Notes under the pieces: model-generated
What the model saw: the letters and a program-made list of their open reading frames with translations, nothing else
What the model was told of the DNA's origin: nothing
Database searches by the model: none
Part shown: piece after piece, positions 1,878-63,197 of the stretch
Layout of the letters: each line of letters opens with the position of its first letter
Numbering within the stretch: the first letter of the stretch is position 1
Made by a program: the position numbers and the translations under genes
Source: a virus
IMG/VR virus record: IMGVR_UViG_3300031857_024884
Location: 124,001-188,000 of that record
Length of the DNA: 64,000 nucleotides
Strand: one strand, 5' to 3'

Positions 1878-3380
1878 TTATTTTATTTTTGCCATTAAAT
1901 CTTTCATTCTCAAAAACTGAGGATTCTCATATGTTTTTGATTCGATTAAATTACTAGCAGAACCTGTAGATTGTGATTTTTCAATAACTCTCTCAACTGA
2001 CTCATTAACATTAGATTTACCTTTAGATGTTGTTACTGATAACTCATCTTTAATGGTTTGATATAAATTCTTAGATTCTTTAATAGTTTCAACACTATCA
2101 AATCTCCTTAAAATATTAATCTTCTCCTGTTTTGACGTAGAATGTTCTGTGAACAATCTTGTAGCGTAAGCCAAGTTTGAATTGAAAACTGCAACCTCGT
2201 TAAGTTTATTTCTGAAAACATTAAGAGCTTTTCTGTATTCTTCGTTCTTTTCTCTAAGTAATTCAACTTCTTTAAAATCAAAGTTTTCTTTGATTGCTGT
2301 ATTAGCACTTGAGTGAGCTCTTCTTTTTGGAAGACCTCCTTTTCTAAAGTTAGAACCATTTCCTAAAGTACGAGACGCTTCTTTTGTTTCCATTTTTTTC
2401 GCTCCCTTTTTAACAGGTTTCATTTTGCCGTCCATGTTTTCACCTTCTTTGTATTCAAATTTCGCTTTTCCTGTACCAACTGATTTAGGACCTTGTTTCA
2501 TTTTTTCTTTGAAACCTCCTGACATATTTGGTTTAGAATTGTATTTGAATTTTGGTGAACCCATTCCAACACCTTTTGCTTTTATTTTCATTTTTTTGGA
2601 CTCCATTAGACTTTCATCTTCCTCGAAGAATTCTTCTTCTTCTTCTTCTTCTTCTTCTTCTTCTAATTCATCAGATTCATTGAATTCGATTTCGTAAACG
2701 ATAGTTTCATCTTCTCCTCCAACCTCAGCATCTCCAGAAAACTCATCATCAGCAATGTTATCCATTTCTAATTCGTAAATATTTTCATCCATTTCATCTT
2801 TGAAAATACTTCCAAGTTCATCTGTAAATTCTTCTCGGTCTTCTGTTGAAAATTCATCATCCATAAAATCCATTTCTTCATCAAGTTCCTCTTCTTCGTA
2901 AGATTCGTCCATTTCTTCGTCCATTTCCTCAACGCTTTCGCCAACAATCATATATTCTTTATCCCCATCTTTAATGTTAATGTTACCCGCCTCATCTTTC
3001 TTTACAACGATGTTATCATCAGGTCCCAATAATTTAAATACACGAATAACTTCATCATCTGATTCGTCAGTTAAGTCAATTGCTTCTTCTTCATCTTCTT
3101 CCTCGTTTTCATCTTCCTCTTCTTCCTCATCACCAACTTCATTTTCGGTGTCTCCCATGTCCATACCCATGTCCATGTTCATTGAGTCGTCAGAACCCGA
3201 TTCAACTTCGGTTTCATCTTCAACCTCTTCTTCTTCTTCAGATAGAGATTCTTTTACCAATTCTTTGATTTCTTGCTTCATTGTTGACGCAAGTATTCCT
3301 TTTGCGTTTTCGGCAACAGCCTCTTCAAGATTTTTCATCTGAATGATTGCCTCTTCTACGATTGATTTTTCTTTTGCCAT
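1878..3380 (-). CDS. gp22: prohead core scaffold protein, gp22-like, very acidic
   Basis: 500 aa. The first ~260 residues are extremely acidic, with long Glu/Asp runs including an 11-Glu tract encoded by a GAA/TTC microsatellite near 2630-2663. A basic Gly/Lys-rich linker follows (~265-350), then a helical C-terminal part with LREKNEEYRKALNVFRNKL and YATRLFTEHSTSKQEKINIL, the kind of coiled segment seen in T4-type scaffolds. Position between protease and capsid matches T4 gene 22. Scaffolds are digested by gp21 during maturation, so low conservation and repeats are expected. A TATTTATA motif lies 25 bases upstream of the ATG. Confidence 0.8.
   Translation of the reverse strand: MAKEKSIVEEAIIQMKNLEEAVAENAKGILASTMKQEIKELVKESLSEEEEEVEDETEVESGSDDSMNMDMGMDMGDTENEVGDEEEEEDENEEEDEEEAIDLTDESDDEVIRVFKLLGPDDNIVVKKDEAGNINIKDGDKEYMIVGESVEEMDEEMDESYEEEELDEEMDFMDDEFSTEDREEFTDELGSIFKDEMDENIYELEMDNIADDEFSGDAEVGGEDETIVYEIEFNESDELEEEEEEEEEEEFFEEDESLMESKKMKIKAKGVGMGSPKFKYNSKPNMSGGFKEKMKQGPKSVGTGKAKFEYKEGENMDGKMKPVKKGAKKMETKEASRTLGNGSNFRKGGLPKRRAHSSANTAIKENFDFKEVELLREKNEEYRKALNVFRNKLNEVAVFNSNLAYATRLFTEHSTSKQEKINILRRFDSVETIKESKNLYQTIKDELSVTTSKGKSNVNESVERVIEKSQSTGSASNLIESKTYENPQFLRMKDLMAKIK
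2626..2665. repeat. TTC/GAA microsatellite in the scaffold gene
   Basis: A run of (TTC)n on the plus strand encodes uninterrupted glutamates in the scaffold protein. The trinucleotide unit keeps frame, so slippage here would only change tract length. Confidence 0.9.
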
Positions 3381-3404
3381 TTTTTTTGTTTGGTTTTATT
3401 TGTA

Positions 3405-3412
3405 TATAAATA
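3405..3412 (-). promoter_or_regulatory. candidate late promoter element TATTTATA
   Basis: On the coding (minus) strand the sequence GATATATTTATATAC lies 25-35 bases before the scaffold ATG. The same TATTTAT(A/T) core recurs before most structural genes in the window, for example terminase (12705-12712) and the cargo genes at 34672, 52990, 57167 and 57785. It is the reverse complement of the T4 late box TATAAATA. Confidence 0.5.
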
Positions 3413-3467
3413 TATCCAAATGTTAAAAAGTTTTTATTTTAACACTTGATGAATATAAATATTTTAA

Positions 3468-4457
3468 TTAAAGGTCTAATTTTCCTTGACCTATTGATTC
3501 TAATTTCTTTTTTTCTTTCTGAATAAGTTTCTCTAACGCTTCTTTTTTAAACTCCAAATCTTTAAGTTTTCTTATGTTAACTTTAAATAAATCTTTAACA
3601 TAATCTTTTTTGGTTTGTTTATTTTTAGATTGTTTTCTTTTTTTGTATTGGGTGTTAAATTCTATATTGGTTAATAAATACGGTTCATAAAAAGCGACAG
3701 AGTTTGTTGATTTTGCGACTATATATTTTTTATTATTTGCAAATAGAATATATTTTTGAGAATCAAAATTTACAAAAAATATAATATCAACATTCTTTTC
3801 GGAATATTTTGACGGATTATAATATGTTTTTAATTGGAAATAAGTGTCGGCATTTTCTTCATCGACATAACTCTTAACCTCTTCAAAAGGTTTTACCTGT
3901 ACGTGAAATGAACCACTCCCAACCTCAACTGATAAGTCCATCCCTTTTAACGTGTCTCTCACATCACCTGAACAAAATCTTTTTATAATTCCCGTATCAC
4001 CAAAATATTTTTTTAGCACATCGATTGCAAATTTTTCATTTCTATTACCCGATTCAATTGTTGACTTATTAAGCGCAACTAATTCATCGGTGTAATCACC
4101 ATTAAATAGTTCTTTTTTATTATTTTCAATAAAATCTATTAAACTACTTGATGTTAATTCCTGTCCAGGATTTTTTTCTAAAAAAATTTGTTTTATTCTG
4201 TCTCTGACTTTTGTGTTTGTGTCAAATCTATTTAATATTGACCATTCGTCTTCTCCGGCTAGATGAGGATATGCTCTAATAACCCCTTCACCAGTTTCAC
4301 AGTTATTATCAGGATTTTGAATTGACCCCCAAAATCCTAAAGGTTTGTATACATCTTTAAGACATTTTCTAATATGTGTTGCAATAGGGTCTTCTTCCTT
4401 TTTTTTCCAAGATTCTTCTATTACTTTAAGTTGTTTTTCAGATAGAAAATATTTCAT
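3468..4457 (-). CDS. putative packaged PD-(D/E)xK-type nuclease
   Basis: 329 aa inserted between protease and scaffold genes. The N-terminus (MKYFLSEKQLKVIEES) resembles the short helical head-targeting segments of other proteins here. The middle part (~165-225) reads as a nuclease-like core: GMDLSVEV, a few residues, then FHVQVKPFEEV, followed by the strand VDIIFFVNF. This suits a D...QxK variant of the restriction-endonuclease fold. The C-terminus is a basic coiled coil (KKRKQSKNKQTKKD onward). The nuclease call is inference from motif spacing only. A terminator at 4484-4513 separates it from the gene upstream, and a TATTTATA motif precedes it. Confidence 0.45.
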   Translation of the reverse strand: MKYFLSEKQLKVIEESWKKKEEDPIATHIRKCLKDVYKPLGFWGSIQNPDNNCETGEGVIRAYPHLAGEDEWSILNRFDTNTKVRDRIKQIFLEKNPGQELTSSSLIDFIENNKKELFNGDYTDELVALNKSTIESGNRNEKFAIDVLKKYFGDTGIIKRFCSGDVRDTLKGMDLSVEVGSGSFHVQVKPFEEVKSYVDEENADTYFQLKTYYNPSKYSEKNVDIIFFVNFDSQKYILFANNKKYIVAKSTNSVAFYEPYLLTNIEFNTQYKKRKQSKNKQTKKDYVKDLFKVNIRKLKDLEFKKEALEKLIQKEKKKLESIGQGKLDL

Positions 4458-20248: not shown

Positions 20249-22285
20249 ATGATTGAATCAGCAGACAGTGGAGGAAAAAAGAATAAATCGGAAGACCAAT
20301 CAAATACTCCGGTTCTTGATAACTTCAGTAGAAATTTAATTAAACTTGCCGAGGAAGGTAAGTTAGACCCTGTAATCGGTAGAGATAGAGAAATCTCAAG
20401 GATTGCTCAAATTCTTTCAAGAAGAAAGAAAAATAACCCTATTATTATTGGTGAACCTGGTTGTGGTAAAACCGCAATTGTTGAAGGATTGGCTATAAAG
20501 ATATTCAATGGGGAATGTCCAAGAAACTTAATGGATAAAAAGATTGTATTACTTGATATGACTTCTGTTGTTGCGGGAACAAAATACCGAGGACAATTTG
20601 AAGAAAGGATGAAAGTTATAATTGAAGAACTTCAATCTAACCCTAACATTATTGTTTTTATTGATGAAATTCATACAATCGTTGGAGCGGGTAATTCTTC
20701 AGGTTCTCTTGATGCGTCTAACATATTTAAACCCGCATTAGCGAGAGGAGAAATACAATGTATTGGTGCTACGACCTTAGATGAGTATCGTAAAAACTTT
20801 GAAAAAGATGGTGCTTTAGAAAGAAGATTCCAAAAAGTTATTGTTGACGCGGCGACAAAACAAGAGACGTTACAGATATTAGAAAATGCTAAAGAAAAAT
20901 ATGAAAGTTATCATAACGTAATCTATTCAAGTGAGATTCTAAAATTATGTGTTGATATGGCGGAAAGATATATTACGGATAGAGAATTTCCTGATAAAGC
21001 GTTTGATATTATTGATGAGGTTGGGGCAAGAAGTCAGGTTGAGATTAAAATGCCAGAAGTTATTGAAAAACTAAAACAAGATGCTTTGGATGTTAAGAAA
21101 GAAAAACTTGATGTGGTTAAACAACAAAATTATGAATTGGCGGCATCACTAAGAGATAAAGAAAGAAAGATTCTTGATAAGTTAGAATCAGAAAAGAAGA
21201 AATTTGAAACTGAATTACAAATTAAAAAGAAAGAAGTAACTGAGGATTTAGTATATGAAGTAGTATCTAATATGACAAAGATACCTTTATCTAAAATAAA
21301 CTCTGATGAAACCAAAACTTTAACAAATCTTGCTGAAGTTATTAATAGTAAAGTTGTTGGTCAAAATGAAGCGGTAAATAAAATTGTTAAATCAATTAGA
21401 AGAAATAGATTAGGAATTAAAGACCCAAATAAACCAATCGGTTCATTTATCTTCTTAGGTTCGACAGGTGTTGGTAAAACATATTTAGCAAAACAATTGG
21501 CTAAAGAAATATTTGGAAGTGAAGATAATTTAATCAGAGTTGATATGTCTGAGTTCCAAGAGAAACACACAATATCAAGATTAATTGGGGCACCTCCGGG
21601 TTACGTTGGTTATGATGAAGGCGGTCAATTAACAGAACAAGTTAAAAATAAACCATACTCAGTTATCTTATTTGATGAAATTGAGAAAGCAAACAAAGAT
21701 ATATTCTCAACCCTTTTACAAGTTTTAGATGATGGTCATATTACTGATGGATTAGGTAGAAAAATTAATTTTAAGAATTGTGTAATCATTATGACATCAA
21801 ATTTAGGTGTTAAGAAATTACAAGAGTTTGGTTCTGGTGTTGGATTTAAATCAAAATCATCCACCTATGTTGAAGAAGAACACAAACGAGATATTCTTAA
21901 AAAAGAATTGCAGAAGTTTTTCGCTCCTGAGTTTTTAAATAGAGTTGATGAGATTATCATATTTAACAAATTAGTTAAAGAAGATATTGATAAGATTGTT
22001 AAAATAGAATTGGATAAATTATTTAATAGATTAGAAACATTAAAATATAAATTTGTATACGACCCATCAATTATCAATTTAATTTCTGAGGTTGGTTTTG
22101 ATGAGATGTACGGAGCGAGACCACTAAAGAGAGCAATCCAAGATAAGATTGAAGATTACATTTCTGAGGAAGTGTTAAAGGGAAACATTGAGGATAATGT
22201 GGAGTATGAATTATATGTCGAAGAAAAGGACATTAAGATAAAAGAAAGAAAACAAAAGAAGACTAAAAAGAAAAAGGGAGAATAA
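20249..22285 (+). CDS. clpC: ClpC-like AAA+ unfoldase lacking the N-domain
   Basis: 678 aa against ~810-850 in cellular ClpC; the Clp_N double repeat is missing. Two AAA+ modules: Walker A GEPGCGKT (68-75) with Walker B VFIDEIH, and Walker A GSTGVGKT with [10 protein letters not shown]. The linker has a UVR motif ([19 protein letters not shown], about 285-310), a mark of ClpC. V531-G532-F533 in SGVGFKSK sits where ClpC carries its ClpP-docking VGF loop, so it could feed host ClpP. No ClpP gene is in the window. The Lys-rich tail ends in a terminator hairpin. Confidence 0.9.
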
Positions 22286-24337: not shown

Positions 24338-24724
24338 GGGGATAAAATGGTATCGACTAGCATAATCAACTATTCGGGGCATGTCAAGGCTGAGTTAACC
24401 TTGTTAAAACTGATTCAAATCGATATACGGCAACGTAATCAACAAACTTACTTCTGTAGGATTAATTCGTACTGAAGAAGTAGCTGTGGCTTAATTAGAT
24501 TAAGTCACACAATTGGGTCGGTGGACATATAACCTAGAAACAGGAGTCTAAATAGAGGTGGAAAAATGACTGAACCCTAAATCGAGTCATTCATTGGTTG
24601 TTAATTTACGATGGTGAAGAACGAATTAACTATTTTTGGAAAGTTAGAAAACTTTATCCTAAGCATGTAGTCCTTAATACTTGGGATGTTTAGCACTTGG
24701 GTTCGACTCCCAATATCTCCACCA
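24338..24724 (+). ncRNA. ssrA: transfer-messenger RNA (tmRNA)
   Basis: 387 nt with encoded CCA. The 5' end GGGGATA pairs with 3' TATCTCC (one G.U pair), the T arm reads TTGGGTTCGACTCCCAA, and the 5' domain has TGGTATCGACTAGCATAATC typical of tmRNA. The tag frame most likely starts at GGC (24429) and ends at TAA (24492-24494). It gives a 21-residue tag beginning GNVINK and ending EEVAVA, longer than the usual ~10-15 but with the hydrophobic end that Clp proteases read. tmRNA rescues stalled ribosomes and marks products for proteolysis; here it sits in one block with a ClpC-like unfoldase and a peptidase. Confidence 0.92.
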
Positions 24725-25120: not shown

Positions 25121-25690
25121 TTATCTAATTAAACTAATATGACCGTATTTTTTGTAATTACGTTTGTCTATCCCCTTCCAAAAACAAACAAAAATATAAA
25201 CATCTGTTTGACAAGGTTTATTATTTAATGTACCGTCCCAAGGTTTATCTTCAGAATTAGAATTAAAAACTAATTCACCCCATCTATTATAAATTGAATA
25301 TTGTAAGTCGGTATAATTAATTCCTTTGGGTGACCATGTTTCATTTTCAACATCTCCAGTAGGGGTAAAAGCATTTGGAAACCACATAAATGTTTGAGTA
25401 CAAGGAATTACTTTTATTGTATAAAAAGTACTATCATAACATCCAGTATTTGTTATAAAAATTAATCTTAATTTATATTCGCCTATTTCAGTCCAAGTAT
25501 ATCTAAACTCATTAACAAAAACATCACTACTACCTGTACCAGGATTTAAAGTCCAAACATTAACACCTGATAATCTTTGGGGGGAACTATAAGTAAATGT
25601 TGTTTGTCCGTCATCACACAATTCTACTACTTGTTGTGTATAACCAAACAAAGGAAATAAAAAACAAAATATATAGAATAATTTTTTCAT
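25121..25690 (-). CDS. secreted protein with type IX secretion (type B) C-terminal sorting domain
   Basis: 189 aa. Signal peptide (MKKLFYIFCFLFPLFGYTQ), a PKD/Ig-like domain with a Cys pair (25-95), then the gliding-motility-type C-terminal domain: PNAFTP (105-110), YNRWGE (134-139), PWDG (150-153) and the terminal strand GHISLIR. In Bacteroidetes this type B domain sends proteins across the outer membrane by the T9SS. A phage gene with it implies a host-exported product. It is third in a row with two other signal-peptide genes (26875-25692). Confidence 0.85.
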   Translation of the reverse strand: MKKLFYIFCFLFPLFGYTQQVVELCDDGQTTFTYSSPQRLSGVNVWTLNPGTGSSDVFVNEFRYTWTEIGEYKLRLIFITNTGCYDSTFYTIKVIPCTQTFMWFPNAFTPTGDVENETWSPKGINYTDLQYSIYNRWGELVFNSNSEDKPWDGTLNNKPCQTDVYIFVCFWKGIDKRNYKKYGHISLIR

Positions 25691-25691
25691 T

Positions 25692-26261
25692 TTAATTATG
25701 TTGTATTGGAGCTAATACAGGGTTTTGACCAACAACAACTGTTGTTGATGTACTAAAGTTACAACCATTTTGAGTTACAGTGTAAGTAACAGTAAAAGAA
25801 CCTACTCCACTTGTTGTAGGACAGAATTGATTACTCACTACACCTGTTCCACTAAATAAACCACCTGACGGAGTTCCAACTAAATTAACACAAGGAGCTC
25901 CTTGACAAAAAGGTCCTATTGAAGTAATTGTCGGTGTTAATGTTAATACAAACACATTTAGATTAACGGGTTGACTTTGACATCCTGTAACAGTATTAGT
26001 CGCAATTACACTTACCGCGTTTGTATTTAATCCTGCGGGTAATGAACCCCAATTAACCGTAATTTGATTTGTTCCAGCACCTGCGGTTATTGTTCCTGGA
26101 GATACTACAGTCCAAGTATAATTAAACCCAGCACCTAACGATGGGACTTGATAAATTGAGCCCGTAGCATTGGGACAAATTGTATCAGGGTTATTAGTTG
26201 TTAACTGAGCAAAAGATATTGTGGTTAACATTGTGAATAGAATTAAGAGTAACTTTTTCAT
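25692..26261 (-). CDS. secreted PKD/Ig-like repeat protein
   Basis: 189 aa with signal peptide MKKLLLILFTMLTTISFAQ. Two Ig/PKD-like segments follow: FNYTWTVVSPGTITAGAG...VNWGSLPAG and FTVTYTVTQNGC, typical of flavobacterial surface proteins. It ends APIQHN, like the GAISHN end of the next gene upstream, and has no T9SS sorting domain of its own. It is separated by one base from the T9SS-cargo gene, so it is co-translated with it and may be a partner. Confidence 0.7.
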   Translation of the reverse strand: MKKLLLILFTMLTTISFAQLTTNNPDTICPNATGSIYQVPSLGAGFNYTWTVVSPGTITAGAGTNQITVNWGSLPAGLNTNAVSVIATNTVTGCQSQPVNLNVFVLTLTPTITSIGPFCQGAPCVNLVGTPSGGLFSGTGVVSNQFCPTTSGVGSFTVTYTVTQNGCNFSTSTTVVVGQNPVLAPIQHN

Positions 26262-26272
26262 TTTTTTATTTT

Positions 26273-26875
26273 TTAATTATGACTTATAGCACCTAAAACA
26301 ACAGGAGTTGCGCTACTTGTTCCTGTGTATATATTAACGTAATTAACATTATCACATGCTGTACTTGTGTAACTACCCCAAACTCCGTCAGCAGCCGCAG
26401 CCACTTCTATTAATAAATTTTGAGGAATACAATTTTGAGAAACCCTAACACTAAAACACATAGTCCAAGTACAATTTGAACCATTACTATCACCATAATC
26501 ATTTCCAGGATTTCCATCACTATTTCTATCAAAAAAATATCCGGGTCCCACGGTAACTGATGGGGTCGCGTCTGATGTTACTGATGTCATCCATAACCAT
26601 TGACCACCAGTACTATTTCCACCACAATTTGCGGGTGATGATACCGGAGTAACATTAGTCCAACCTGAACCTAAATTAATATCAAAACCTTCAAACCAAT
26701 TACTTCCTGTTTGAGTAAAACTTTGTAAAGTAACACAGACATTAACTGTTGTTCCTGGAGTATAACCACCGACTGGTGGGGATGGAGTTAAAGTAAAAGT
26801 TAAATTACCGCTACATTGAGAAAATGATTTTAATAGTGATAAACTAAAAAGAATATAAAAAAAGAAATTTCTCAT
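26273..26875 (-). CDS. secreted protein, first of the three-gene exported cluster
   Basis: 200 aa from the ATG at 26875 (MRNFFFYILFSLSLLKSFSQ, a signal peptide). An earlier ATG at 26920 would run through the terminator and promoter. The mature part is Gly/Ser/Asn/Cys-rich and contains WFEGFDINLGSGW and YFFDRNSDGNPGNDYGDSNG, the latter like a Ca-binding DxNxDG loop. It ends VVLGAISHN. A TATTTAT motif 10 bases upstream suggests late expression. Similar domains occur at the start of large flavobacterial adhesins. Confidence 0.65.
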   Translation of the reverse strand: MRNFFFYILFSLSLLKSFSQCSGNLTFTLTPSPPVGGYTPGTTVNVCVTLQSFTQTGSNWFEGFDINLGSGWTNVTPVSSPANCGGNSTGGQWLWMTSVTSDATPSVTVGPGYFFDRNSDGNPGNDYGDSNGSNCTWTMCFSVRVSQNCIPQNLLIEVAAAADGVWGSYTSTACDNVNYVNIYTGTSSATPVVLGAISHN

Positions 26876-26909: not shown

Positions 26910-26945
26910 AAGGGAGACATCGTTGGCTAAATCGATATCTCCCTT
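26910..26945 (-). terminator. terminator of the large structured RNA
   Basis: Coding strand: AAGGGAGA, internal pairing, TCTCCCTT, then TTTTATTTT. It shows that the transcript runs on the minus strand and ends just before the secreted-protein cluster. Confidence 0.85.
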
Positions 26946-27350
26946 CTAAGCCATAAGTTTCTTTCACAAGGATAACTTTTAAACCTTACTATTATGGTGA
27001 GTGAACCATATTGTAACTACTTACGTGAGTTGTGACGTTGGTTAAACCAATTTACGTTTGTGTGTTTTCGGTCTTTCTTGAATCACCTGAAGACCTTGTG
27101 GTTATCACAAACTACCACACCCTAAAAAATCGGTTTCGTACAGTTTTTTTCCTTTAGACGGGTGAGTCGTGTATTTAGGACTCAACATCAGTTTTTTTGT
27201 ATTCATTTTTTCCTTACACAGGATGAAATCGTGAACAACAAAAACTATAAAACACACAATATAACAACCGAACTTATGTTTTTGGATGAAAAGTTTAAAC
27301 TCATTATCGTTTAGTGTTAAAGTCAAACACTTTCTATTGGAGTCACTTGG

Positions 27351-27422
27351 TAGCGGGTGATGGAATCGAACCATCCGTCTTTAGGTTATGAGCCTAACGA
27401 GTTACCATTTCTCTGACCCGCA
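27351..27422 (-). tRNA. tRNA-Met (CAU), initiator-like, inside the large RNA
   Basis: Anticodon loop CTCATAA, T arm GATGG-TTCGATT-CCATC perfect, and CCA encoded after discriminator A. Features of initiator tRNA: the first acceptor pair is broken (T1 against T72) and the D stem has A11:T24. The anticodon stem ends in two G:C pairs instead of three. Position 8 is C and D-stem pair 13:22 is A:A, both unusual. So it is either a functional phage initiator tRNA or a tRNA-like domain of the large RNA. Confidence 0.8.
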
Positions 27423-28300
27423 CTATTTTTTGTTAAATCATGGCTGAGAATACACCATTACTTGAGAACCTTTAGTGAGATTATTAGTTCCTCACATTTC
27501 CACTTTTTTTTGGAAAGTATTCCTCAGTGACGGTTATTTAGGTAAACCACTCCTTGAGGTATCAATTACTCTCTTATTACTCAACTCTCTTCGAGGATGC
27601 CTCCCCAACTCGTTCTTGCGGAACTAGAGGTTTTTGGTAAGATTACATTCAGACTTGGGGTCTTCGTGTGCAATGAACGACTCATTACTATGTAGTCACC
27701 TTTCATCGATACCTGACAGACACTTTTCCTTTGAACAAATTTTTAGTTTATTTAAGTACGTGTCGTGGATTAATCGAAGTAGTGGTCTGCCTTAGGTTCA
27801 GTCATCTTTTGAACAACTGAATGCCAAACTACTCCGTGAAATGTCCCCATCTCCATTCTTTAAGTTTACTTCATATCACAACCTTGGCGGGTCGTTAATA
27901 AGGACGGTAGCGACACCACTCGTTCTCCATCTTACCTTTCGGTTTTAAGTCCACTTTTAAATTGGAAACCGCAATAATATGGTCGGATAACCACACCTTT
28001 TACAGGATTCCTATGAGTTATTCTTATTGTTCTTCCGAACTCAACCTAACAATCCACATTGCTCGGTCACCAAACCACTTTCCCTAAAGCGTTGCCCTCA
28101 GTACTAAAGGTCGGATGATATCCCACTTGTATACTCGAGCTCAGTTTCCCGAGCCGCAGAATCACTAACACAGGTGACCCCACTTTATCCTACTTTCGTA
28201 GTTTATTTAACGACCATATACGGCCGATTATCATTTATCAGTATCCCCTCATAATCAACCCGAAGGTCTCATAATCGAGGACTGAATGGATAATTCAATA

Positions 28301-54259: not shown

Positions 54260-55291
54260 ATGAATAAAAAGTTTGATTTTAAGGACATTACATTAGTTCC
54301 TGAAGCAATTAGTTCGGTTAATTCAAGAAAAGAAATTAATCCTTATAATGAAAATGGTAATTTACCAATTATGGTTTCACCAATGGATACCGTTGTTGAT
54401 GAAGAAAATTGTAGTTTATTTTTAGACCAAGCATTAGAGGTCTGTTTACCGAGAGGCGTATTTTCAGAAAGAAGTGAACCATTTAATTCAATATCATTAT
54501 CAGATTTTGAAGAGGTTGTTAATTGGTATGAAGATGGTAGTATTGAATCTGAGACAACAAGATTTTTGGTTGATATTGCAAATGGTCATATGAAAAAATT
54601 ACACGAATTATCCGAGAGATTTACTAAAATTAGAAAATCTGATAAACATCAGATAATGGTTGGTAATATTGCAAACCCTAACACATTTGAAAAGTTTTGC
54701 GAAATTGGAGTTGATTATGTTAGAGTCGGTATTGGTGGTGGTAGCGGATGTTTAACTTCGGCAAATACAGGCGTTCATTATCCAATGGCATCTCTAATCT
54801 CAGAATGTTACAGAATTAAAGAATATGGTGGTTATAAAACAAAAATAATTGCTGACGGTGGTTTTAGAAATTATGATGATATTATAAAAGCATTGGCTTT
54901 AGGTGCTGATTATGTTATGTTGGGTGGAGTATTAAATAAAACTTTAGAATCTTGTTCTACAACAATGTTATTTAATCTAATACCAATTAATCAAACATAT
55001 TCTAAGATAATTTGGGAAGAAATGCCATTACTAAAGAAATATTTGTATAAGGGTTTTAGAGGTATGAGTACCAAAGAAGTTCAAGATAAGTGGGGTAAAA
55101 CAGAACTAAAAACATCTGAAGGGATAAGTAAAACAAATAAAGTGGAATACACTTTAAGTGGGTGGGTTGAGAATTTAGAGGACTATTTAAGGTCGGCGAT
55201 GTCTTACACCAACTCTAATACACTTGAAGAATTTAAGGGTTCTGAGTATGTTTTTATTACTCAAAACGCTCTTAATCGTTTTAATAAATAG
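54260..55291 (+). CDS. GMP reductase / IMP dehydrogenase-like enzyme
   Basis: 343 aa, the size of GMP reductase and without the CBS domains of IMPDH. TIM-barrel motifs: FDFKDITLVP, VSPMDTVVD, the catalytic Cys loop GIGGGSGCLTSANTGVHYP (C164), IIADGGFRNYDDIIKALALGADYVMLGG and the flap YKGFRGMSTKEVQ. It would change purine nucleotide balance during infection. The promoter appears to be TTTTGG...TATAATTG upstream on the plus strand. Confidence 0.85.
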   Translation: MNKKFDFKDITLVPEAISSVNSRKEINPYNENGNLPIMVSPMDTVVDEENCSLFLDQALEVCLPRGVFSERSEPFNSISLSDFEEVVNWYEDGSIESETTRFLVDIANGHMKKLHELSERFTKIRKSDKHQIMVGNIANPNTFEKFCEIGVDYVRVGIGGGSGCLTSANTGVHYPMASLISECYRIKEYGGYKTKIIADGGFRNYDDIIKALALGADYVMLGGVLNKTLESCSTTMLFNLIPINQTYSKIIWEEMPLLKKYLYKGFRGMSTKEVQDKWGKTELKTSEGISKTNKVEYTLSGWVENLEDYLRSAMSYTNSNTLEEFKGSEYVFITQNALNRFNK

Positions 55292-58254: not shown

Positions 58255-60105
58255 TTACTTAACTTCTTCAAATTCTACATCGTTATGATTAATATCTGAA
58301 GGTTCTTCTGTTTTATAAAGTTCCTCACTTATCTTATGAAACTTTTCATTTAATTCATTAACTAAAGTTGTTACGGTATCTATTTCTTTTTTAGAAATTG
58401 ACTCTGTTAATTTATCAATTATAGAATTAATCTCACTTTTTTGTTCTTCAGTTATTTTTTCACCTAAATCTGTCATAGATTTTTTGATATTGAACACGGT
58501 ACTATCCGCTATATTTAAAATCTCCACATCTTCTTTGGCCTTTTTATCACTTTCGGCATTTAATTCAGCATCCCTCTTCATCCTTTCAATTTCTTCTTTT
58601 GACAACCCTGAAGATGATTCAATTCTGATTGATTGTTGTTTGTTAGTTGCTTTATCTAAAGCGGATACATTAATAATACCATTTGCATCAATATCAAATG
58701 TAACCTCAATTTGAGGTGTACCTCTCATAGCCGGAGGAATTCCGTCTAAGAAAAATTTACCAATAGTTTTATTATCTCTCGCCATCGCTCTTTCGCCCTG
58801 TAATACATGAATCTCAACACTTGGTTGATTATCCGAGGCAGTTGAGAATACTTGCGAACGTTTAGTTGGAATCGTTGTATTGGATTCTATAAGTTTTGTA
58901 AAAACTCCACCCATTGTTTCAATACCTAATGATAGTGGGGTAACGTCTAATAATAAAACATCTTTAACATCACCAGCTAAAACCCCACCTTGGATAGCGG
59001 CTCCTAACGCAACTACTTCATCAGGATTAACTCCTTTTGACGGTTCTTTACCGAAGAATTTTTTAACTGCGTCTTGAATTACGGGAATTCTTGTTGTTCC
59101 ACCAACTAAAATAATTTCATCAATTTCTTCAGTTTTTAATCCCGCATTTTTTAATGCCGATTTACAAGGTTCAATAGTTCTTTCGACTAATTTATCTACT
59201 AATTGTTCGAATTTAGATTTTGTTAACGTTCTAACCAAATGTTTTGGGATACCGTCAACCGGCATAATATAAGGTAAGTTAATCTCGGTAGAACTTGTTG
59301 AGGATAGTTCTACTTTCGCTTTTTCTGCGGATTCTTTCAATCTTTGTAACGCCATAGAATCTTTAGTTAAATCAATCCCATTTTCGGTTTTAAATTCCGA
59401 TACTAACCAATCAATAATCGCTTGGTCAAAATCATCTCCGCCTAAATGAGTATCTCCATCCGTTGATAGTACTTCAAACACTCCATCACCTAATTCTAAT
59501 ACGGATACATCGTGAGTTCCTCCACCACAATCAAAAACAACAATTTTTTGGTCTTTACCTTTCTTATCTAATCCGTAGGCTAAGGCGGCTGCGGTAGGTT
59601 CGTTGATAATTCTTTTTACGGTTAGTCCTGCAATTTCACCCGCCTCCTTTGTTGCCTGTCTTTGAGCATCGTTAAAGTAAGCCGGTACCGTAATAACCGC
59701 CTCAGTAACCTCAGTTCCAAGATAATCTTCAGCGGTTTTTTTCATTTTCTGTAAAATCATTGCTGATATTTCCTGTGGAGAATATTTTCTATCGTCAATT
59801 TCAACTCTTGGAGTATTATTATCTCCTTTTACTACTTTATAAGGGACTCTTTCTATCTCACTTTTAGACTCTGTGAAATTAGTGCCCATAAATCTTTTAA
59901 TTGAGTAAATTGTTTTATTCGGATTGGTTACCGATTGTCTTTTTGCAGGGTCTCCAATTTTTCTTTCACCCTCACTAACAAAACCAACAATAGATGGTGT
60001 TGTTCTTTTTCCTTCGTTATTCGTAATCACGACTGGTTCGTTACCTTCCATTACGGCAACGCATGAATTTGTTGTTCCTAGGTCAATACCTATAATTTTT
60101 CCCAT
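58255..60105 (-). CDS. dnaK: chaperone DnaK (Hsp70), full length
   Basis: 616 aa. Complete nucleotide-binding domain ([73 protein letters not shown]) and substrate-binding domain ([28 protein letters not shown]), ending VEFEEVK like Bacteroidetes DnaK. GGGTHD has His where cellular DnaK has Phe. Phage genomes rarely carry a whole DnaK; DnaJ and GrpE are not in the window. A TGACAAAATGACA element lies upstream. Confidence 0.95.
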
Positions 60106-60472: not shown

Positions 60473-61149
60473 TCTTCTTTCTTTTCTGAAGCGTATTTAA
60501 CACCCATTATTGTTCCTATGATACTAAAAGCGTTGGTTAATAATATACCAAACATATTTGACCATGTTGAACCTATCATTTGAGTGTCTTTATTTGCAAA
60601 AATTGAGATAATATACATTAATGTTGTTACAATACCGACTGATACGATTACCCATAAAGCAACTTTAACAATTTTACCGATAAGTTCTGTTTGAGTTTTT
60701 TTCTGAAGTAAATCTAAATCATTTATTGCGTGTTGTTTGGCATTTTCCGCTTCAAGTCTTGCTTGTTCGGATTTTTCCATTTCACTTTGTAATTCTAAAC
60801 TAATTTTTTCATTTTTTTCTTTCCATTCAACAAGTTCAGTATTTTGTTTTTGAATCTCCTCTTTGGAAGTCTCAACATTTTTTAAAGTTTCTTGTAATTC
60901 GGACATAATTTTTGTATTTTCCAAATTAAGGTCAGATAATTCTTTGTTTTGTAATTGAACCTGTTTTGTTATATCCAAACGCCTCTTTCTAGTCTCCCTA
61001 TCTTTATTAACACAGTATTCAATATAGTTTTTAAAATCTTCATCGTTTTCGGTATCAATAACTTTGGCAATATTTCCCTCCAAAGTTATATTTTTAGTAT
61101 TATATAACTCTATTAATTGTAATTTAGTCTCTTTGTTAAGTTTAATCAT
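60469..61149 (-). CDS. coiled-coil membrane protein of the signalling cassette
   Basis: 226 aa. N-terminal helical region, a long coiled coil (~60-150: LQNKELSDLNLENTKIMSEL onward), then two membrane helices (VALWVIVSVGIVTTLMYIISIF and MFGILLTNAFSIIGTIMGV). It overlaps the receiver gene by one base, so the three genes 63197-60469 form a unit. Possibly the output or sensor partner of the kinase; no known family. Confidence 0.6.
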   Translation of the reverse strand: MIKLNKETKLQLIELYNTKNITLEGNIAKVIDTENDEDFKNYIEYCVNKDRETRKRRLDITKQVQLQNKELSDLNLENTKIMSELQETLKNVETSKEEIQKQNTELVEWKEKNEKISLELQSEMEKSEQARLEAENAKQHAINDLDLLQKKTQTELIGKIVKVALWVIVSVGIVTTLMYIISIFANKDTQMIGSTWSNMFGILLTNAFSIIGTIMGVKYASEKKED

Positions 61150-61580
61150 TATTTATAAACCTTAAAAGGTGAGGTTCTATTTTTATAACCTTCGTAATCT
61201 TTTCTAAACTCTTCTAAACGAGGTTCAATATCATCAGATTTTATTATCCAAAATTGAGCTCCCGCTTGAATAGCCTTTGCCTGTTCTTCCGATTCGTTAC
61301 TCGAAGATATAATACCTATAACTACGTTATTACCGTATTCAAAATTAATCTTACGAATAAGTTCAATACCATCAAAGGATGAACCTATAATATTAAGGTC
61401 AACGAATACACATTCGGGTCTACCACTTGAGTTCTTTTGCCAATCGGCGAATAACCTAGCCGCCTCATCAGAACTATTTAAACTTTTTAATGACAATGTA
61501 ATGTCTAATAAGGAACAACTATCCTCAAAAACCAAATGGAATAAATCCTCGTCATCAACTAATAAAATTGAATCAATCAT
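61149..61580 (-). CDS. response-regulator receiver domain protein
   Basis: 143 aa, receiver domain only. Acidic pocket D9-D10-E11, phospho-acceptor D61 (CVFVDLNIIG), S92-S94 in GIISSSNES and K114 (WIIKSDD): all functional positions are kept. No output domain, so it acts by protein contact like CheY-type proteins. It lies 15 bases after the histidine kinase gene and overlaps the membrane-protein gene. Confidence 0.85.
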   Translation of the reverse strand: MIDSILLVDDEDLFHLVFEDSCSLLDITLSLKSLNSSDEAARLFADWQKNSSGRPECVFVDLNIIGSSFDGIELIRKINFEYGNNVVIGIISSSNESEEQAKAIQAGAQFWIIKSDDIEPRLEEFRKDYEGYKNRTSPFKVYK

Positions 61581-61595: not shown

Positions 61596-63197
61596 TTATT
61601 TTATTTTTATTTTCATTTTAGTCCCAATTTCGTTTTTCTCGCACGTAATTGTAAATCCGTGTTCTTCTAAAATTGCAACACAAATATTTAATCCCAACCC
61701 TGTTCCTGATTCTTTTTGACCTTCTTTTCTTGTATACGGTTTAGACAGATAATTAAAATCTTCTTGAGTAATTCCTCTACCATTATCTTGTATTAAAATT
61801 AAATCTCCTTCATAATATATCTTAACAAACTTTGTTTCAGAGTCATTATACTTTAAACCATTTCTTATTAGGTTATCAACCGCAGTACAAAACAACGCTT
61901 CATTAATTTCAATCGTTGGTAAATTATCTTCTAATATGACTTGACTTATATAGGCGGTCGATGATAAATAATCATTAAGGATATTCTTTACATTACATTC
62001 AGATTTGTTTAATACAACATCTTTCTTTACAAGATTGGTGAACTCATAAACACCTTTATAAACTTTTTGTGAGTGTTTAAGACCTTCTTTAATCATTTTA
62101 AGAGGTGATTCAATCTTTAACAACTCAATATCTTCAGGTTTTAATCTACGTTCTAATGAACTAAGTCCTCTTGGCATATAAGTATTAATTCCTGAGTGCA
62201 TATCATGTCTCAATATTTTAGCAGCATGTTCTAGGTAAGTGTTTTTCTTCTCAATCTCTTTCTTTTGTTCATAAGAATTAGTTACATCAGTTGCGATTTT
62301 CATAATACGATAAATTTTACCATCCACACCAATAATAGGGTTATACGTGGCTTGTAAATGTACCAAAGACCCGTCTTTTTTGATTCTAACAATTTCTCCA
62401 GAAAACAATATACCCTCATTTAATTTTTTCCAAAAAAGAGAGTAATCTTCACTTTTTGCATATTCATCATCTATAAAAATTCTGTGATGTTTCCCAAATA
62501 GTTCATCTTGTTGAGAATATCCCATAGTTTCTATAAATAAATTATTTGCGAAAATAATGTTTCCTTCTAAATCAAACTCAATAACCGCGTTAGATTTATT
62601 AATCGCATTCATTCTATTACGGATTTCCGTCTCTTTTTTCTTAAGCTCTGTAACATCTTGTCTAATTGATGAAAAACCTTCTAATTTACCATTATTATCG
62701 AATTTCGCTTTAATATATGTGTCAACGTAATATAATTCACCAGATTTTGATTTATTGGTAACAACATCATTCCATATCTCACCTTTCATTACCGTCTGAT
62801 ACATTTTACCCCAATAACCATTAGGTTGTCGTCCTGAGTTAACAATATTATGGTCTTTACCAATTACTTCATCCAAAGACCATCCGGACACATCCTCAAA
62901 TTTTTTATTAACGTATGTAATTTTACCATTTTTATCCGCTACTGAAATAATCGCAGCAGCATCAATAAACCCCTCATCATCTTTTATTTTCTTTAATAAA
63001 TTACTTTTTAATTCATCGTTTTGTGATTTCATCAAAAAATAAAATAATGGTATAAATAGTATTATACAAAGATATTCAACAACTTTAGTAATTTGAGTTG
63101 ATTCAATATAACCAATTATTATCATTGTTTTAAGAATAAAAAAAACAGACATGATAATAATTGAAGGGAGTAAATAAGTTTTAAATTTATAATTCAT
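61596..63197 (-). CDS. PAS-domain sensor histidine kinase
   Basis: 533 aa. Two N-terminal membrane helices (~8-58), PAS 1 (ADKNGKITYVNKKFEDVSGW...) with PAC-like end, PAS 2 (IEFDLEGNIIFANNLFIETMGYS...), a helix with the likely phospho-acceptor His in AAKILRHDMHSGINTYM, and an HATPase domain: NLIRNGLKYND (N box), LIQDNGRGI (G1) and GTGLGLNICVAIL (G2). All catalytic boxes are kept, so it should be active. Promoter of the TATTTATT class upstream, shared divergently with the endolysin. Confidence 0.88.
   Translation of the reverse strand: MNYKFKTYLLPSIIIMSVFFILKTMIIIGYIESTQITKVVEYLCIILFIPLFYFLMKSQNDELKSNLLKKIKDDEGFIDAAAIISVADKNGKITYVNKKFEDVSGWSLDEVIGKDHNIVNSGRQPNGYWGKMYQTVMKGEIWNDVVTNKSKSGELYYVDTYIKAKFDNNGKLEGFSSIRQDVTELKKKETEIRNRMNAINKSNAVIEFDLEGNIIFANNLFIETMGYSQQDELFGKHHRIFIDDEYAKSEDYSLFWKKLNEGILFSGEIVRIKKDGSLVHLQATYNPIIGVDGKIYRIMKIATDVTNSYEQKKEIEKKNTYLEHAAKILRHDMHSGINTYMPRGLSSLERRLKPEDIELLKIESPLKMIKEGLKHSQKVYKGVYEFTNLVKKDVVLNKSECNVKNILNDYLSSTAYISQVILEDNLPTIEINEALFCTAVDNLIRNGLKYNDSETKFVKIYYEGDLILIQDNGRGITQEDFNYLSKPYTRKEGQKESGTGLGLNICVAILEEHGFTITCEKNEIGTKMKIKIK

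Follow-up and report, generated by a model that had tools for sequence, protein, structure and literature searches.

Three consecutive genes of a large phage encode short signal-peptide proteins, of which the first two end in a common I-x-H-N motif and the third carries a type B C-terminal domain (CTD) of the type IX secretion system (T9SS). There is about an even chance that they form a phage-borne surface complex of three subunits, displayed by the T9SS of the host, with the tail of the first protein docking on the second and that of the second docking on the third. Judged from the sequences of its relatives, the tail is the most distinctive feature of the cassette; the earlier note on this DNA, made from the sequence alone, assigned it no role. 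With confidence that falls a little short of even, I-x-H-N can be regarded as a new docking or co-secretion tag, through which CTD-less proteins would be exported, with assembly taking place in trans on a type B carrier, and which large Bacteroidota phages would spread as a modular cassette with exchangeable tips.

The cassette belongs to a 203,171-bp virus record of IMG/VR, of which a window of 64,000 nt (record positions 124001–188000) was analysed. Matches to the T4 portal (6.9e-77) and the terminase large subunit (3.9e-23) demonstrate that hallmark virion genes are present, and the record is that of a large T4-like phage with putative Bacteroidota hosts. The three consecutive signal-peptide genes recognised in the earlier note are all in place on the minus strand (Table 1). 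The intergenic gaps measure 11 nt between genes 1 and 2 and 1 nt between genes 2 and 3; the start of gene 1, an ATG at position 26875, is backed by homologues. The late-type promoter postulated for the cassette was not found: TATAAATA is absent from the 125 nt upstream of gene 1, and sigma-70-like sites upstream of the cassette are no commoner than in shuffled sequence. A hairpin with a same-strand T run upstream of gene 1 indicates that a terminator precedes the cassette; the loop of this hairpin exceeds the loop limit of the hairpin scan, from which it is missing.

Table 1. Features of the three-gene cassette (positions refer to the window)
Feature	Position	Strand	Description
Gene 1, 200 aa	26273–26875	-	Signal peptide, domain of ~170 aa and C-terminal AISHN; proposed tip subunit
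Gene 1 tail AISHN	26276–26290	-	C-terminus of gene 1
Gene 2, 189 aa	25692–26261	-	Signal peptide, two Ig/PKD-like domains and C-terminal PIQHN; proposed linker subunit
Gene 2 N-terminal PKD_6 domain, residues 23–96	25974–26195	-	PF19408, 3.2e-11; proposed acceptor for the gene 1 tail
Gene 2 tail PIQHN	25695–25709	-	C-terminus of gene 2
Gene 3, 189 aa	25121–25690	-	Signal peptide, PKD-like domain and type B T9SS CTD; proposed carrier/anchor
Gene 3 N-terminal PKD-like domain	25400–25633	-	Akin to the gene 2 N-domain; proposed acceptor for the gene 2 tail
Gene 3 type B sorting domain, residues 104–189	25124–25381	-	PF13585 and TIGR04131
Terminator-like hairpin and T run	26913–26944	-	Just upstream of gene 1; read from the sequence

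The type B CTD ascribed to the last gene is complete. Gene 3 contains the motifs PNAFTP, YNRWGE, PWDG and GHISLIR, spaced as expected, and matches both PF13585 (CHU_C; 5.7e-15, 55.7 bits against a cut-off of 27) and TIGR04131 (55.3 bits against a cut-off of 35; positions 3–85 of the 85-position model, reaching the last residue of the protein), in each case above the curated cut-off. The signal peptide of gene 3, MKKLFYIFCFLFPLFGYTQ, was read from the sequence; in the AlphaFold2 model of the protein (mean pLDDT 89), residues 2–16 form a helix. Signal peptides of the Bacteroidota type, also read from the sequence, start all three proteins (..FSQC, ..SFAQ and ..GYTQ). These features argue strongly for the use of the host T9SS by gene 3. 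The same genome encodes a second T9SS-type protein outside the window (1,855 aa; G000:C1 191924–197491, equivalent to L012 3924–9491), which comprises a signal peptide, a Gly-rich domain, SprB repeats, seven PKD_6 domains and a type A CTD. Thus, with the type B cassette and this type A protein, the phage invests in both T9SS routes. Good support for the proposal that the phage supplies the T9SS of its host with cargo comes from the curated type B domain, which is found on a protein with a signal peptide and is conserved among related phages, and from the 1,855-aa type A protein. Its extension to three exported cargoes is not borne out as it stands: gene 3 alone has a sorting domain, and all that genes 1 and 2 have is a Sec signal peptide and the I-x-H-N tail.

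Type B CTDs depend on a cognate PorP/SprF shuttle both to be secreted and to be anchored at the surface (PMC9143113, PMC12618676). A nearby PorP/SprF gene is common but not universal, and orphan type B cargo is known (PMC12618676). PorP/SprF (PF11751) was not found in the 203-kb phage record, so a host shuttle must serve, and it may not match. A shuttle supplied by the phage was ruled out, there being none in the record; in one related locus, L029, a 362-aa barrel-like neighbour has no Pfam match.

Neither a type A nor a type B sorting domain was found in genes 1 and 2 with Pfam and NCBIfam; these genes are therefore classed as proposed partners of T9SS cargo, not as cargo. Gene 1 has no family match in Pfam or NCBIfam and lacks a PKD-like N-domain; its homologues occur in 13 other viral loci (alignment A5). 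The alignment of gene 2 (A4) contains 18 sequences. Fold searches returned only generic Ig-like matches and one viral PKD protein, A0A6J5NML0 (59% identical). Pairwise dN/dS was about 0.11–0.38 for gene 1, 0.11–0.57 for gene 2 and about 0.2–1.0 for gene 3, the highest values being those where synonymous sites were saturated. These values indicate that all three genes are functional and that the carrier, gene 3, evolves fastest, which would fit adaptation to differing host shuttles. A single gene split by frameshifts was ruled out by the separate signal peptide of each gene, the retention of the split in 19 loci and purifying selection.

The tails GAISHN (gene 1) and APIQHN (gene 2) are real, and the (A/P)I(S/Q)HN end that had been seen to be shared by the two proteins has its counterpart, of the form I-x-H-N/Y, in the gene 1 and gene 2 products of all 19 phage loci. 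Among 326 non-overlapping complete ORFs of these loci, an I-x-H-N/Y end closes all 38 of the 38 gene 1 and gene 2 products and none of the 288 other ORFs (at least 80 aa). I and H are invariant in the tail of gene 1, with N in 13 of 14 sequences; in gene 2, P, I and H are invariant (18/18) and N occurs in 17 of 18. The last five residues of gene 2 constitute the second most conserved five-residue window of the mature protein. L029 is the sole locus with Y in place of N, and the replacement affects the tails of both genes. The tail also ends gene 1 proteins of unrelated fold (Gly-rich, SprB repeat); when differing gene 1 types are compared with hhalign, the signal peptide alone aligns.

The search for similar clusters in other phages, advised in the earlier note, was productive. 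A scan with gene 1, followed by scans with the alignments of genes 1 and 2, gave about 30 viral loci, which after merging of duplicates represent 18 distinct further loci with the cassette. Alignments were required, as scans of viral and genome data with single proteins yielded few or no relatives; genes 1–3 were not found in any cultured phage of INPHARED. The order of the three genes is kept in every further phage locus long enough to include gene 3. The neighbourhoods vary (GOLLD/tmRNA, DnaJ and a metalloprotease, tail sheath/tube, GltX, GIY-YIG, nuclease). Some loci have one or more extra signal-peptide genes between genes 1 and 2, one of which, in L019, carries a borderline type A CTD. 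A different gene 1 protein is present in L040–L042, L044 and L045; the replacement contains a Gly-rich domain in L040 and a SprB repeat in L044, and belongs to no family in L041.

Some of these contigs encode further proteins of T9SS type. In L010 (9543–12665), a second type B CTD belongs to a GEVED/Ig protein of 1,040 aa encoded downstream of the cassette. In L040 (2473–4932) and L042 (2484–4934), signal-peptide proteins of 816–819 aa with Ig_7 and a type A CTD sit directly upstream of the Gly-rich gene 1. Dense tRNA arrays lie beside the cassette in L040 (9362–10647), L041 (7601–9970) and L042 (7227–7934 and 11648–12485).

Across about 300–400 Bacteroidia genomes, the raw IxHN motif shows no visible excess over the built-in control, and none of 26 random short CTD-B genes has an IxHN-tailed neighbour; on these grounds, a general Bacteroidota C-terminal signal was ruled out. 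The same results, and the fact that the neighbour of a tailed gene nearly always encodes a PKD-like N-domain and a type B CTD, make it unlikely that I-x-H-N is a short C-terminal signal that the host envelope machinery reads, with genes 1 and 2 exported independently of gene 3. Candidate readers would be the translocon, a PorP/SprF-like shuttle or a periplasmic chaperone. Such a signal would explain why proteins of unrelated fold, and both subunits that lack a CTD, share one tail; moreover, both tails of L029 shift together to HY, as expected with one common reader.

Fused forms with a single type B CTD and without IxHN are found in two huge phages, LR745206 (732 aa; domains homologous to genes 2 and 3) and LR756502 (1670 aa; domains homologous to genes 1 and 3), and in one further viral contig, L011 (688 aa). 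The proteins of the two huge phages are single polypeptides with one signal peptide and one CTD, whereas the cassette consists of separate genes. Fusion of the matching domains with one CTD is a Rosetta-stone sign of working together; the presence of the tail on separate subunits and its absence from fused forms indicate that the motif goes with a free C-terminus.

Cellular versions were found in three Bacteroidia genomes. A genome scan with gene 2 returned mostly giant PKD proteins and one locus of a Draconibacterium MAG (L092/L179), where consecutive signal-peptide proteins ending in SPIQHN and SGIYHN precede a protein that starts with PKD_6 and is truncated at the end of the contig. Pattern searches gave G010, with proteins of 596 aa (..NIFHN), 392 aa (..SPIFHN) and 332 aa (PKD-CTD-B) and then PorP/SprF (1.7e-57), which follows the cassette only in this genome, and G081, with a 204-aa protein (..TGIFHN) and then a 346-aa PKD-CTD-B protein. 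The cellular form is real but uncommon, since the motif does not visibly exceed the control genome-wide and the 26 CTD-B genes have no tailed neighbours.

The absence of a sorting domain from genes 1 and 2 would agree with a scenario where gene 3 alone reaches the surface and the other two proteins are periplasmic, acting, for example, on the T9SS, the gliding machinery or incoming phage, and are co-transcribed by chance of operon history. This scenario is rendered quite improbable by the fusion of related domains to a single CTD in other phages and by the cellular operons, which share the gene order, with PorP/SprF in G010.

In all three cellular operons, a PKD_6-like domain (i-E < 1e-13) forms the start of the subunits that come after a tailed one. 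The N-domains of phage gene 2 are all homologous and PKD_6-like. Profile–profile comparison of gene 3 with gene 2 (hhalign, A4 against A6) showed a clear relation, with 97.7% and an E value of 2e-12, the signal peptide being included in the alignment; a domain-only HMM matches phage gene 3 weakly, with i-E < 0.01 in 5 of 18 sequences and < 1 in 17 of 18. First subunits have no PKD_6-like N-terminal domain, and a PKD_6-like start is seen in 1 of 11 random short CTD-B proteins. This rule suggests that the tail is the donor and the PKD domain the acceptor, in the order tip–linker–anchor. In an AlphaFold2 model of a linked gene 1–gene 2 chain, with the stop read through, the core domains fold and the gene 1 tail is unstructured (pLDDT < 50) and undocked; the read-through signal peptide and the thin alignment weaken this docking test. 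The undocked tail, the weak homology of the gene 3 acceptor, the lack of PorP/SprF in the phage and the rarity of the cellular form count against a chain.

Ig-like domains are common on phage virions, and L026 and L030 have tail sheath and tube genes ahead of the cassette, so that the three proteins could be virion parts (decoration or fibre), the T9SS-like domain being an Ig-like fold borrowed for the virion; the three signal peptides, the full type B signature and the location of the remaining loci far from virion genes make this very improbable. The least probable explanation is a covalent tail, in which the C-terminal Asn would be linked either to the following subunit or to a glycan at the surface (isopeptide/sortase-like), giving a cross-linked fibre: the C-terminal His-Asn is strict, with N in all loci but one, but the cassette has no candidate enzyme and Tyr replaces Asn in L029.

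In the proposed three-subunit complex, Sec would take each subunit across the inner membrane, as the signal peptides suggest. Type B CTDs in general are established to engage SprA and PorP/SprF and to be anchored at the surface. Gene 3, the sole subunit with a sorting domain, would engage the host SprA translocon and the host PorP/SprF shuttle through its CTD, and the shuttle would anchor it on the cell surface. The acceptor of the free I-x-H-N tail of genes 1 and 2 would be the PKD-like domain at the N-terminus of the following subunit, onto which the tail would plug, probably in the form of a short peptide or an added strand. The set may be exported or assembled as tip–linker–anchor, with the type B subunit carrying it through the host translocon; co-export or assembly of genes 1 and 2 via the tail is predicted with moderate confidence. 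Gene 1 would be an interchangeable tip, and the infected cell would show a modular surface fibre. Speculatively, the fibre might alter the surface of the infected cell, for example in superinfection exclusion, receptor masking or adhesion. Three proteins acting separately would fit less well than a surface structure; the uses put forward in the earlier note (blocking of receptors or of gliding, or a surface structure) are all candidates.

In chaperone–usher, type V and other donor-strand pili, the terminal peptide of one Ig-like subunit completes or docks on the next. The cassette may have in common with them the idea of a variable tip, a linker and an anchor; unlike those pili, it has no usher or chaperone and would use the T9SS route, and the proposed likeness is one of idea. 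The type B CTD region aligns with that of grappling hook protein A of Aureispira (PDB 9flp; E 1.5e-14), which is a single protein of 5,898 aa, in contrast to the three short proteins of the cassette. Type B cargo with a shuttle, such as SprB–SprF of Flavobacterium johnsoniae and PG1035–PorP of Porphyromonas gingivalis (PMC9143113, PMC12618676), resembles the cassette in combining a signal peptide and PKD/Ig-like modules with a type B CTD. Anchoring by PorP/SprF is expected for the cassette as well, and the cellular G010 has an adjoining shuttle gene. However, those cargoes are single polypeptides, whereas in the cassette CTD-less IxHN subunits precede the CTD subunit and the record has no PorP/SprF.

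Phage T9SS cargo was published in 2019–2020, namely the type A cargo of Cryophage (PMC7468147) and sorting domains near crAss-like BACON genes (PMC6949934). These proteins, like those of the cassette, are presumed users of the host system; in the available portions of the two papers they are single proteins, with no split cassette or shared tail reported. No description of a split cassette or an IxHN tail was found in the literature searched, a limited collection, and the split architecture and the tail motif appear to be undescribed. If the proposal is true, T9SS export is not confined to CTD-bearing proteins, and phages remodel the Bacteroidota surface by a multi-subunit structure instead of single cargo proteins. 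As the motif is short, strict and cassette-specific, the travel or assembly of CTD-less proteins on a CTD subunit is open to tail-deletion and tag-fusion tests.

The surroundings of the cassette in the window contain several other elements. A GOLLD RNA (27441–27836, minus strand; RF02032, 317.7 bits, E 3e-91) is situated directly upstream and is adjoined by a tRNA-Met (27348–27422); the order GOLLD–tRNA–cassette recurs in L033 and L038. A phage-coded tmRNA (24338–24724, plus strand; RF00023, 92 bits) was missed by ARAGORN; a tmRNA also adjoins the cassette in L033 and L038. A ClpA/ClpB-like ATPase without a Clp N-domain match (20249–22285, plus strand), an IMPDH/GMP reductase (54260–55291, plus strand) and a DnaK called by sequence (58255–60105, minus strand) are encoded farther away. 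Adjacent genes on the minus strand encode a receiver (response regulator; 61149–61580) and a PAS histidine kinase (61596–63197), and L041 has a related receiver/histidine-kinase pair (2210–4413) immediately upstream of the cassette.
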